Of a stretch of 64,000 nt of DNA, positions 46,401 through 52,088 are shown piece by piece (position 1 is the first letter of the stretch; the number at the start of each line of letters is the position of its first letter). The stretch comes from Agrococcus beijingensis (GTDB taxonomy: Bacteria; Actinomycetota; Actinomycetes; Actinomycetales; Microbacteriaceae): contig NZ_CP132360.1 of assembly GCF_030758955.1 (NCBI RefSeq), positions 263,467 to 327,466 on the forward strand, given 5' to 3'. Position numbers and translations under genes: made by a program. Below the pieces are notes generated by a model. The model did not search any database, had not been told where the DNA came from, and saw nothing but the letters and a program-made list of their open reading frames with translations.

Positions 46401-47012
46401 GAGCGGGCGACGGGCGCGGAGGTCCGGTGGGCCTCCGCGTGATCCTGCCAGTGCGGCCGAAGGCCGCGCGTCTGTTCGATTGCCGGCGATCGCGACCCAG
46501 GGGAGCGGGCGTCGGGCGCGGAGGTCCGGTGGGCCTCCGCGTGATCCTGCCAGTGCGGCCGAAGGCCGCGCGTCTGTTCGATTGCCGGCGCTCGCGACCC
46601 AGGGGAGCGGGCGACGGGCGCGGAGGGCCGGTGGGCCTCCGCGTGATCCTGCCAGTGCGGCCGAAGGCCGCGCGTCTGTTCGATTGCCGGCGCTCGCGAC
46701 CCAGGGGAGCGGGCGACGGGCGCGGAGGGCCGGTGGGCCTCCGCGTGATCCTGCCAGTGCGGCCGAAGGCCGCGCGTCTGTTCGATTGCCGGCGATCGCG
46801 ACCCAGGGGAGCGGGCGACGGGCGCGGAGGTCCGGTGGGCCTCCGCGTGATCCTGCCAGTGCGGCCGAAGGCCGCGCGTCTGTTCGATTGCCGGCGATCG
46901 CGACCCAGGGGAGCGGGCGACGGGCGCGGAGGTCCGGTGGACCTCCGCGTGATCCTGCCAGTGCGGCCGAAGGCCGCGCGTCTGTTCGATTGCCGGCGAT
47001 CGCGACCCATTG
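46401..47012 (-). repeat. Six tandem 102-bp repeats carrying the tRNA-Gly 3' tail
   Basis: Units start with GAGCGGGCG at 46401, 46503, 46605, 46707, 46809 and 46911; the seventh in phase, at 47013, is the 3' end of tRNA-Gly itself. On the minus strand each unit ends with the last 14 bases of the tRNA gene. Each also holds two hairpins: GCGGCC-GAA-GGCCGC, and a 10-bp stem around GGT whose central pair varies (T-G in most units, T-A in the unit next to the tRNA, mismatched in units 3 and 4). The unit length is a multiple of three, so long open frames run through it, but I see no gene. Confidence 0.95.
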
Positions 47013-47084
47013 GAGCGGGCGACGGGAATCGAACCCGCGTAATCAGTTTGGAAGACTGAGGCTCTACCATTGAGCTACGCCCGC
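47011..47084 (-). tRNA. tRNA-Gly (anticodon TCC)
   Basis: On the minus strand the cloverleaf is complete: acceptor GCGGGCG/CGCCCGC, D-arm with AGCTCAATGGTAGAGC, anticodon loop CTTCCAA (TCC) between TCAGT and ACTGA, and T-loop GGTTCGATTCC. The discriminator is T and CCA is encoded (47011-47013). A TAGATT box (47125 to 47120) lies 35 bases before its 5' end. The repeat array follows directly downstream. Confidence 0.97.
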
Positions 47085-47119
47085 GTGCCCCGCACTCGCG
47101 TGAGCGGCGGGACTGGACG

Positions 47120-47159
47120 AATCTACCGCATCCACCGGCACCATCCGCCCCGCTACGCT
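47120..47159. promoter_or_regulatory. Divergent -10 boxes of tRNA-Gly and the beta-glucosidase gene
   Basis: Minus strand: TAGATT (47125 to 47120) for the tRNA. Plus strand: TACGCT (47154-47159), with 6 nt before the GTG at 47166, predicting a leaderless beta-glucosidase mRNA. Confidence 0.55.
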
Positions 47160-47165
47160 CATGGC

Positions 47166-48641
47166 GTGCAGCGAAGCATCCCCCACGACCTCGTGCTCGG
47201 CGCCGCCACGGCGGCCTACCAGATCGAGGGCGCAGCGGCCGAGGACGGCCGCACGCCCAGCATCTGGGATGCGTTCAGTCGCGTCCCCGGGGCGGTGATC
47301 GACGCGCACAACGGCGATGTCGCCTGCGACCACTACCACCGCATGCCCGAGGACGTCGCGATGATGCGCGAGCTCGGGCTGCAGACCTACCGCTTCTCGA
47401 CCAGCTGGGCACGCGTCTGCCCCGACGGCGGCGCCCCGAACGCCAAGGGCCTCGACTTCTACTCGCGGCTCGTCGACGAGCTGCTCGACGCCGACATCCT
47501 GCCGTGGCTGACGCTCTACCACTGGGACCTGCCGCAGACGCTCGAGGAGGCCGGCGGCTGGCCGAGCCGCGACACCGCCCACCGCTTCGTCGACTACGCG
47601 CTCGCGGTGCACGAGCGGCTCGGCGACCGGGTGCAGAACTGGACCACCCTCAACGAGCCCTGGTGCTCGTCGTTCCTCTCCTACATCGCCGGCGCGCACG
47701 CGCCGGGTCGGCAGAGCGTCGAGGCCGGCCTGCAGGCGGGCCACCACCTGCTGCTCGCCCACGGCATGGCCGTGCAGGCGCTGCGCGATGCGGGCGCCGA
47801 GCGCCTCGGCATCACCCTGAACTTCACCGTCGCCGACCCCGTCGACCCGAGCAGCGCATCCGACCTCGATGCCGCCCGGCGCATCGACGAGCAGTACAAC
47901 CGGTTCTTCGTCGACCCGATCCTGCGCGGCTGCTACCCCGAGACGCTGCTCGCCGACGTCGGCCACCTGGGCCTCGACGCGGTGGTGCAGGAGGGCGACC
48001 TCGCGATCATCGCGAGCCCCATCGACGTGCTGGGCGTCAACTACTACCACGGCGACGCCTGCTCGTTCGAGCCGCCGGCCGAGCCGATGCTGCAGGATGC
48101 GCCGACCGATCGCGCGATCCGCAGCCCGTTCCCGGCGGCCGACGGCGTGCAGATCCACCCGCGCGGCCTGCCCGTGACGACGATGGGCTGGGAGGTGCAG
48201 CCCGACGGCCTCACCCGACTGCTCACCCGGCTGCACGAGGAGTACGCGGGGCCGAAGGGCGTCGAGCTCTGGGTCACCGAGAACGGCGCCGCCTACGACG
48301 ACGAGGTGGTGCTCGAGACGCCGTGGGTCGCGGAGGATGCCGCGACGGAGGCAGACGGTGCGGATGCGTCCACGGATCAGGCGGGCACGCTCGCACCGCG
48401 CATCCACGACCCCGAGAGGGTGGACTTCCTCCGCGCGCACGTGGGCGCCGTGCTCGACGCGATCGACGCGGGGGTGCCCGTCAAGGGCTACATGTACTGG
48501 TCGCTGATGGACAACTACGAGTGGGCCTGGGGCTACCACAAGCGATTCGGCATCGTGCGGGTCGACTACGACACGCAGGAGCGCACCGTGAAGGACTCCG
48601 GGCTCGAGCTCGCGCGCATGATCCGCGAGCGCACGCTGTAG
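47166..48641 (+). CDS. Glycoside hydrolase family 1 beta-glucosidase
   Basis: Retaining GH1 enzyme releasing glucose or related sugars from beta-glycosides. 491 residues: GAATAAYQIEGAA near the start, the acid/base Glu in LNEPW, and the nucleophile Glu in WVTENGAAYDD, plus YMYWSLMDNYEWAWGY near the C-terminus. No signal peptide, so cytoplasmic. An Ala/Asp-rich insertion follows the nucleophile (about 390-410). The GTG at 47166 (VQRSIPHDLVLG) fits both the family start and the -10 spacing; open frame upstream runs into the tRNA gene and is not coding. No sugar transporter is adjacent. Confidence 0.93.
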   Translation: MQRSIPHDLVLGAATAAYQIEGAAAEDGRTPSIWDAFSRVPGAVIDAHNGDVACDHYHRMPEDVAMMRELGLQTYRFSTSWARVCPDGGAPNAKGLDFYSRLVDELLDADILPWLTLYHWDLPQTLEEAGGWPSRDTAHRFVDYALAVHERLGDRVQNWTTLNEPWCSSFLSYIAGAHAPGRQSVEAGLQAGHHLLLAHGMAVQALRDAGAERLGITLNFTVADPVDPSSASDLDAARRIDEQYNRFFVDPILRGCYPETLLADVGHLGLDAVVQEGDLAIIASPIDVLGVNYYHGDACSFEPPAEPMLQDAPTDRAIRSPFPAADGVQIHPRGLPVTTMGWEVQPDGLTRLLTRLHEEYAGPKGVELWVTENGAAYDDEVVLETPWVAEDAATEADGADASTDQAGTLAPRIHDPERVDFLRAHVGAVLDAIDAGVPVKGYMYWSLMDNYEWAWGYHKRFGIVRVDYDTQERTVKDSGLELARMIRERTL

Positions 48642-48716
48642 CGGGCGGGCGGGCGGGCGCACGCTGCGACCGGACGGGCGCACCCGGGCCGCGTCGCGCA
48701 TCCGCCCCTGCACAGA

Positions 48717-48747
48717 CGAAGGGCCGGCCCACCCGGCCGGCCCTTCG
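48717..48747. terminator. Bidirectional terminator between the beta-glucosidase and fasciclin genes
   Basis: A perfect 13-bp stem (48717-48729 with 48735-48747) with a 5-base loop, placed between the two convergent stops. Confidence 0.9.
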
Positions 48748-48774
48748 AGCTTGTGTGCCCTGATCGTGCGGTGA

Positions 48775-51411: not shown

Positions 51412-51442
51412 TCGGGCGGGAGCGCCGGCCGAGCGCTCCGCG

Positions 51443-51498
51443 GACCCCTTCCGCCAAATTCGACCTGGTGCACCAGGTCGCCATTGGTGGAAGGGGTC
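51443..51498. repeat. 56-bp imperfect palindrome after dipZ
   Basis: Two 28-bp arms meet without a loop and match at 24 of 28 positions; the central 20 bp (51461-51480, CGACCTGGTG and its complement) are perfect, as are the outer 10 bp. It lies 31 bases after the dipZ stop and 35 bases before the tRNA-Pro -10 box. Possibly a terminator or an extragenic palindrome. Confidence 0.85.
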
Positions 51499-51532
51499 GA
51501 GCGGGCGTGCGATCACCTGCTGGCAGCGCCGA

Positions 51533-51538
51533 TAGACT
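51533..51538 (+). promoter_or_regulatory. TAGACT -10 box of tRNA-Pro
   Basis: TAGACT lies 27 bases before the tRNA 5' end. No clear -35 is seen. Confidence 0.55.
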
Positions 51539-51565
51539 CGCCATTCGTATGGGAGCGATCCCTTA

Positions 51566-51640
51566 CGGGGCGTAGCTCAGCTTGGCTAGAGTGCCCGCTT
51601 TGGGGGCGGGAAGTCGCAGGTTCGAATCCTGTCGCCCCGA
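51566..51640 (+). tRNA. tRNA-Pro (anticodon TGG)
   Basis: Acceptor CGGGGCG/CGCCCCG, D-arm with AGCTCAGCTTGGCTAGAG, anticodon stem CCCGC/GCGGG closing loop TTTGGGG (TGG), T-arm GCAGG-TTCGAAT-CCTGT, discriminator A at 51640. CCA is not encoded (CGA follows). The cloverleaf is intact. Its 3' half recurs in the following array. Confidence 0.97.
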
Positions 51641-52042
51641 CGAGTCGGCTGCTGTCGCAGGTCCTTCGGCCCGGCGGGCAGCGCGTCGCGGTGCGACGCG
51701 GGTTCGAATCCTGTCGCCCCGCCGGTCCGACGCTGTCGCGGGTCCTCACGCCCGCGGCCAGCGCGTCGCGGGGCGCAGCGGGGTCGAATACTGTCGCCCC
51801 GACGGTCCGACGCTGTCGCGGGTCCTCACGCCCGCGGCCAGCGCGTCGCGGTGCGACGCGGGTTCGAATCCTGTCGCCCCGACGGTCCGACGCTGTCGCG
51901 GGTCCTCAAGCCCGCGGCCAGCGCGTCGCGGTGCGACGCGGGTTCGAATCCTGTCGCCCCGACGGTCCGACGCTGTCGCGGGTCCTCAAGCCCGCGGCCA
52001 GCGCGTCGCGGTGCGACGCGGGTTCGAATCCTGTCGCCCCGA
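51641..52042 (+). repeat. Five tandem repeats (82 + 4 x 80 bp) carrying the tRNA-Pro 3' half
   Basis: Each unit ends with a copy of the tRNA T-arm and acceptor strand, GGTTCGAATCCTGTCGCCCC, at 51701, 51781 (mutated), 51861, 51941 and 52021; the original is at 51619. Before it, each unit can form GCGTCGC-GGT-GCGACGC (perfect in four of five) and, in units 2-5, a second hairpin with CGCGGG/CCCGCG. Units 3-5 are almost identical, unit 1 and the flanking remnant are the most diverged. No gene is apparent. The unit length is not a multiple of three. Confidence 0.95.
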
Positions 52043-52088
52043 CGAGCGGTTGCTGTCGCGGGGCCCGGGCCGAGCCGGCAGCGCGCTA
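52043..52088 (+). repeat. Degenerate sixth unit of the tRNA-Pro array
   Basis: CGAGCGG...CTGTCGCGG...GGCAGCGCG aligns with the start of the first unit (51641 onward) but lacks the T-arm copy. It reaches the stop codon of the minus-strand DUF2255 gene. Confidence 0.6.

Follow-up and report, generated by a model that had tools for sequence, protein, structure and literature searches.

Arrays of tail copies and hairpins behind tRNA and protein genes of Agrococcus, possibly amplified insertions of a hairpin element

Tandem units that repeat the 3′ end of the tRNA gene before them are described at the tyrT locus of Escherichia coli, an array that, to our knowledge, has been treated as a one-off, and the rtT RNA from this locus has reportedly been proposed as a decoy or competitor in tRNA processing. 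Among dispersed repeats, the actinobacterial MIRU of Mycobacterium are short intergenic units that occur both scattered and in tandem near TGA stop codons. CGTC-tagged REPs are single palindromes of 20-40 bp with a stem of 8-9 bp and no known transposase (PMC3733652), and the word 'Actinobacteria' is absent from that paper's main text. Here, we analysed a stretch of 64,000 nt from Agrococcus beijingensis (GCF_030758955.1, contig NZ_CP132360.1, positions 263,467-327,466; hereafter the window), in which ARAGORN finds two tRNA genes only, tRNA-Gly(tcc) and tRNA-Pro(tgg). As an earlier note made from the letters of the window had described, each is directly followed by an array that repeats the tRNA's own tail; there are six units at Gly and five at Pro. 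The same design recurs behind other tRNA genes of this genome, in other Agrococcus species and behind protein genes, and thus reflects a process that recurs rather than an oddity of tRNA genes.

In design the window arrays are the same as the E. coli tyrT/RtT array, while they belong to a different sequence family. The E. coli tyrTV locus has units of 178 nt, with three exact 19-nt tail copies after tyrV at +159, +337 and +515 and four matches to RF00391 (133-138 bits), and matches to the unit were found in 4622 of 5426 E. coli genomes. Shared with it are the tandem units directly 3′ of a tRNA gene, the own tail in every unit, the end of the array on a tail copy and the hairpins (seen by eye in E. 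coli); an inverted copy of the T-arm lies in the E. coli unit as in the Gly units, clearly so at Gly-ccc and weakly at Gly-tcc, whereas the Pro and Asn units are without it. The differences are the 178-nt unit there and, here, the several isoacceptors and protein genes involved and the palindromes flush with the tail; RF00391 gave no match on the Gly or Pro array at E-value ≤5. The earlier note knew of no described family of this kind in actinobacteria, which stands for Rfam, where no match was obtained, but has to be restricted in view of the E. coli array; among the literature matches listed, there is no description of tail arrays of such design in actinobacteria.

The Gly array carries the 15-nt tail CCCGTCGCCCGCTCC as the tRNA's own copy and six downstream copies, in units with a mutual identity of 95-99%, and the Pro array carries a 21-nt tail as own copy and five downstream copies (Table 1). 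Pro units 2-5 are 93-100% identical among themselves, and unit 1 is 2 nt longer, with 83-88% identity to the others in a gapped alignment. Both arrays finish on a tail copy. The two hairpins per unit claimed earlier are present in the best fold of both the Gly and the Pro unit, but the folding energy sets neither unit far apart from its shuffles (Gly, z -1.54, with 15 of 200 shuffles reaching it; Pro, z -2.52, 1 of 200), so that both are moderately unusual at most. The claim that the arrays share no core holds between Gly and Pro, as neither unit found the other's array in a search of the own genome (best 40 of 47 and best 40 of 61 candidates), and fails genome-wide: the Gly-tcc core is common to the unit behind tRNA-Gly(ccc) at G000:C1:452040 (G000 being the own genome), with 92% identity over 62 nt, and that unit bears the Gly-ccc tail. 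At this Gly-ccc locus (G000:C1:452040-452290), the tail unit is interrupted by a G run with 33 N after it. Differing spacers, as in a CRISPR-like array, were not found, the fillers being nearly identical inside each window array; an origin of the fillers as degenerate tRNA copies was ruled out on reading, with no recognisable tRNA 5′ half in them; and a scan of the Gly and Pro arrays found no terminators.

Table 1. Positions of the tRNA genes, array parts and related features in the window (P, palindrome; TRF, Tandem Repeats Finder; E, the dispersed two-hairpin element described in the text).
Feature	Position	Strand	Basis and remarks
tRNA-Gly(tcc)	47011-47084	-	ARAGORN; Rfam RF00005; own tail at 47012-47026 is the array's first tail
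tRNA-Pro(tgg)	51566-51641	+	ARAGORN; own tail at 51619-51639
Gly array, six 102-bp units	46400-47010	-	TRF (period 102, 6.3 copies, 97% matches, 46384-47026) and tail search
Gly tail copies	46910-46924, 46808-46822, 46706-46720, 46604-46618, 46502-46516, 46400-46414	-	
Pro array, five units of 80-82 bp	51640-52041	+	TRF (period 80, 5.6 copies, 92% matches, 51615-52062) and tail search
Pro tail copies	51701-51721, 51781-51801, 51861-51881, 51941-51961, 52021-52041	+	
Terminal palindrome P, first Gly unit (CGCGGAGGTCC-ACC-GGACCTCCGCG)	46925-46949	-	Sequence and fold; flush with next tail copy; recurs every 102 bp
First hairpin of Gly unit (GCGGCC-TTC-GGCCGC)	46963-46977	-	Sequence and fold
Degenerate inverted copy of tRNA T-arm (GCCGGCAATCGAAC), first Gly unit	46984-46997	-	Shuffle test: 20 of 500 shuffles as good at the locus
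Palindrome P, first Pro unit (GCGTCGC-GGT-GCGACGC)	51683-51699	+	Sequence and fold; one base before tail copy; recurs in units
E copy	38367-38451	+	Covariance model R1, 84.4 bits, E-value 3.1e-14
dnaE 3′ end, empty here, occupied in G018	23487-24077 (G000:C1:286953-287543)	+	

In the 800 nt downstream of each tRNA, tail copies (15 nt, at most 2 mismatches) were found behind 4 of the 45 tRNA genes of the own genome (Gly-tcc, Pro-tgg, Gly-ccc and Asn-gtt). The upstream side gave 0 of 45, and pairing each tail with the downstream DNA of another tRNA gave 2 of 1894. With up to 3 mismatches the test no longer discriminates (5 of 45 versus 54 of 1894), and a match downstream of tRNA-Thr(ggt), present solely at this level, where chance yields about one, was discarded. 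The earlier note would have been refuted had all other tRNAs of the genome lacked such arrays, and this is not the case, yet 41 of the 45 genes are without copies and multiple copies occur in the window alone: Gly-ccc and Asn-gtt have a single tail copy each, and at Asn-gtt the tail and the terminator are duplicated together, directly behind a palindrome.

Comparison among 24 Agrococcus genomes (Microbacteriaceae; the genus was identified via FtsY loci) indicates that presence and copy number differ between genomes at the same gene. Gly-tcc tail copies with at most 1 mismatch occur in 3 of 24 genomes (six in the own genome, two before a contig end in G022 and one in G011), Pro-tgg copies in 4 of the 22 genomes read (G000, G018, G003 and G012), and Gly-ccc copies in 4 of the 10 read (G000, G018, G009 and G012), with truncated units in G017 and G023; at Pro-cgg, read in G007 and the own genome, one tail copy was found in the former and none in the latter. 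The copies resemble the tRNA they follow, with few mismatches, and unit lengths across loci are 68-126 nt. The stems of the Pro-tgg palindrome vary by species yet pair (GCGTCGC/GCGACGC, GCGACGC/GCGTCGC and GCGAAGC/GCTTCGC); that of G012 is decayed, and the sequence after its tail copy resembles the empty site of G015, G010 and G009.

The palindrome of the Gly unit, CGCGGAGGTCC-N3-GGACCTCCGCG, recurs behind a protein gene, ftsY, in the order gene end with stop codon, spacer of about 24 nt, palindrome, and the final ~20 nt of ftsY once more. This order was reached via the palindrome at six loci, with two units in G018, G015 and G010, and is present at 3 of 12 readable named Agrococcus loci, while others are empty (e.g. 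L238 and L240). The palindrome stems differ yet pair (GGAGG/CCTCC and GAAGG/CCTTC), and the second tail drifts independently of the gene. In Leucobacter chironomi (L256), the ftsY end is duplicated in tandem without a hairpin.

Following the palindrome also led to a dispersed element of about 85 nt, here termed E, whose two hairpins are connected by a conserved linker and whose right end is likewise conserved. Of its 24 predicted pairs, 16 show a compensatory change across 49 aligned copies, and no Rfam family matches E at the gathering score. Searched with the covariance model, 46 of 150 Microbacteriaceae genomes, belonging to 32 of 85 genera, contain E, the own genome with at least 29 copies; the family survey scored no more than 30 candidates in each genome, so that its copy numbers are lower bounds. 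The FtsY loci of other genera (n = 67, 456 kb) gave no E match below an E-value of 0.05, while whole genomes of the family did give E. Copies flank 5′ gene ends on 111 sides and 3′ ends on 97, and E was not found in phages or plasmids, nor the Gly array in plasmids. By eye, two positions outside the predicted helices, in the linker and right end (alignment A1), seem to covary between G-C and C-G, which would fit either two subfamilies or a tertiary contact. At two loci of other genera (L380 and L381), E abuts the 5′ ends of tRNA-Ala and tRNA-Gly genes, and it may thus enter tRNA 5′ leaders.

At several sites E stands between a gene end and a copy of it. Around 116 distinct E copies, we counted flush direct repeats that start within 6 nt of the right end of E, end near its left end and score at least 12, and found them at 16 of the 116, compared with 6 of 1160 flank pairs taken from different copies. 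Three of the 16 are E-to-E tandems and the other 13 are gene-end or terminator repeats at seven loci, dnaE and six more: an RlmD-like methyltransferase (3 species), dnaE, an acyl-CoA dehydrogenase, FKBP (2 species), a phosphoglycerate mutase, the terminator behind rplA (2 species) and a uracil permease, the genes being named from one species each. The duplicated end measures 13-47 nt at E sites and 14-80 nt at tRNA genes, and at the right junction the hairpin passes straight into the tail, the two sharing 0-3 nt as judged by eye. Tandems of two and three units occur at L119, L163, L165, L168 and L169, and the arrays at ftsY, L119 and L168 likewise finish on a tail.

Occupied and empty sites stand side by side in sister genomes at dnaE, ftsY and Pro-tgg. 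In G018, dnaE is followed by E and then a 43-nt copy of the gene end; E is present at this 1 of 24 dnaE loci, and nothing but a short spacer separates dnaE from the next gene in the own genome, G005 and G017. A dnaE tail copy in G020 was dismissed as a scaffold artefact beside an N gap. The dnaE-hisD spacer of L352, L354, L356 and L357 (hisD named by eye) holds species-specific arrays of short repeats, e.g. GAGTGGCGCC. At a fourth named ftsY locus, that of an uncultured Agrococcus (L247), two E copies (62.6 and 43 bits) occupy the site. After them, 20 nt of the ftsY end recur exactly, joined at the CGCG junction also seen at the plain palindromes elsewhere, and a further E-like right end lies behind ftsY in L247:3874-4210. 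Therefore, at ftsY, the plain palindrome and E take the same place in different genomes, L247 being the sole case.

Based on these findings, we propose, with confidence about equal to our doubt, that the arrays are amplified insertions of a hairpin element together with a duplicated gene end. A short palindromic element would arrive just downstream of a gene and leave a direct duplication of the gene end, giving the order gene, tail, hairpin element, tail with the gene intact; slippage or unequal recombination between the repeats could then multiply the unit of hairpin and tail, and conversion or turnover might keep the tail copies like the host gene. At tRNA genes the duplicated end would consist of the 3′ strand of the T-stem and the acceptor strand (plus the terminator at Asn and Gly-ccc), and the copies would for this reason be the tRNA's own tail. 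One bracketed insertion followed by amplification leads to the expectation that arrays finish on a tail, as at Gly, Pro, ftsY, L119 and L168, and insertion with amplification would account for the empty sites, the tail-ended arrays and the likeness between tRNA and protein genes. The tRNA-type units share the plan of E, i.e. hairpin, linker and, at Gly, a GCGGAGG-type stem, which suggests that they could descend from E and belong to one superfamily with it. More tentatively, and with doubt prevailing, a mobile palindromic element that belongs to no known transposase class could be spread across Microbacteriaceae and insert at gene 3′ ends, restoring the gene end through target duplications of unusual and variable length (13-47 nt and more), in which case the tRNA arrays would be its amplified footprints and E. 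coli tyrT maybe the independent footprint of a like event.

Several results weigh against amplified insertion. The tRNA-type units give no significant match to the E model (best E-values 0.3 for Gly-ccc, 0.87 for Gly-tcc and 2.8 for Pro), and the value for the ftsY palindromes (0.08) is close to that of an unrelated stretch (0.07). Flanking repeats at a score of at least 12 are lacking at 100 of the 116 E copies, and 17 further copies with readable flanks, 14 of them from other genera, had no flush repeat. None of the seven duplicated ends is a gene start: they are 3′ ends or, in one case, a terminator. E nevertheless flanks 5′ ends no less often, and unbiased insertion would also copy gene starts. 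The second tail copy at L136, L168 and L247 takes in part of the first hairpin of E, at L247 as the ftsY-end repeat runs on into it, an overlap that a plain target duplication does not give; L163 resembles a simple tandem duplication. The orthologous tRNAs are mostly without an array (Pro-tgg in 18 of 22 genomes, Gly-tcc in 21 of 24). As to a driving enzyme, the search covered Y1 and RVT_1, and no genome-wide search was made for integrases, Cas1 or further classes of transposase: Y1_Tnp (PF01797) was found in 0 of 24 Agrococcus genomes, with the control positive in 5 of 14 known genomes, and RVT_1 (PF00078) in 2 of 24 (G001 and G003), neither being the own genome or G018. With no fitting enzyme, REP-RAYT and reverse transcription were rejected as drivers.

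Insertion alone leaves the 3′-only duplication and the overlaps at L136, L168 and L247 unexplained, and the overlaps are fitted better by hairpin-driven template switching, in which a pre-existing palindrome would stall replication and the nascent strand would slip into the gene end, recopy it and skip the palindrome, arrays growing likewise without transposition. The flush right junction with its 0-3 shared bases, the copied ends at E being gene 3′ ends or a terminator only, and the lack of a candidate enzyme in the Y1 and RVT_1 searches speak for this alternative, from which the identity of the copies with the own tail follows directly, and it could also leave inverted T-arm copies such as those of the Gly units and E. 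coli. It has to meet the dnaE case, where element and duplication appear together in one genome and E is absent from the other 23 loci, and the arrays that finish on a tail would need a skip each time; on balance, we regard it as a possible but rather doubtful explanation. Independent random tandem duplications, by comparison, would fit the differing unit lengths and cores, a genus rich in other tandem repeats and the hairpin-free ftsY duplication of Leucobacter chironomi, and are scarcely credible given the many loci with a hairpin flush against a copied gene end and the 4 of 45 versus 2 of 1894 tail copies.

A selected RNA function, in which the arrays would form long trailers of the tRNAs and their tail copies and antisense T-arms would interfere with tRNA processing by competition or as decoys, was considered from the inverted T-arm copies in particular. 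These beat all shuffles (0 of 500 as good) at five Gly-ccc loci and at E. coli tyrV, stand out less at three Gly-tcc loci (13-32 of 500) and are absent from the Pro and Asn units (114-441 of 500); Gln-ttg, one of the 41 own tRNAs without tail copies, also bears one. Together with changes that preserve pairing, as in the stems at Pro-tgg and ftsY between species, the T-arm copies leave room for a possible RNA function at the Gly loci. That a unit mimics a tRNA was rejected: one Pro unit folds into a cloverleaf-like form, yet 7-70% of shuffles match the closing stem, which is thus no general feature. The same anatomy behind ftsY, dnaE and other protein genes speaks against the tRNA-specific tail-decoy role suggested earlier, as do the closing stem, the absence of the T-arm copy at Pro and Asn, the many orthologous Pro-tgg and Gly-tcc genes without array, the decayed G012 palindrome and the independently drifting second tail of ftsY, so that such a function appears improbable as the explanation of the arrays. 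The tail copies could instead be scars of integrative elements that use tRNA 3′ ends as attachment (att) sites, and tRNA-Pro(tgg) does serve for integration in G014 (L104 and L095), where an element of about 15 kb with a tyrosine integrase sits in this gene, Phage_integrase (PF00589) adjoins, and an exact 35-nt tail copy without a hairpin lies ~15 kb off at the far end. Like the arrays, such elements repeat a tRNA tail at their boundary; the units here are gene-free tandem hairpins, and their 68-126 nt are too small for genes. The att core of G014 starts ~12 nt further upstream than the array tails, no integrase-bearing element lies between tail copies, and hairpin-flush tails also occur at dnaE, ftsY and other protein genes, which makes this origin very unlikely.

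With REP/BIME-RAYT systems, E shares dispersed intergenic palindromes in many copies per genome, and it differs in its 85 nt with two hairpins, its long flush gene-end repeats and the absence of Y1_Tnp from the 24 Agrococcus genomes. CGTC-tagged REPs are single palindromes, a form that E with two hairpins in 85 nt does not have (PMC3733652). MIRU differ in that they are not known to carry a long copy of the host gene end.

What is new here is one genus in which the tail-array design is present at several tRNA and protein genes and sites with and without it can be set against each other, and the origin of tail arrays thereby becomes testable by strain comparison; to this is added E, a conserved two-hairpin element in nearly a third of the Microbacteriaceae genomes surveyed, with no Rfam match and no evident enzyme in the Y1 and RVT_1 searches. 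Apart from these features, the mraW RNA motif (RF01746) matches the window at 1011-1108 on the forward strand with 53.9 bits, the gathering score being 50.

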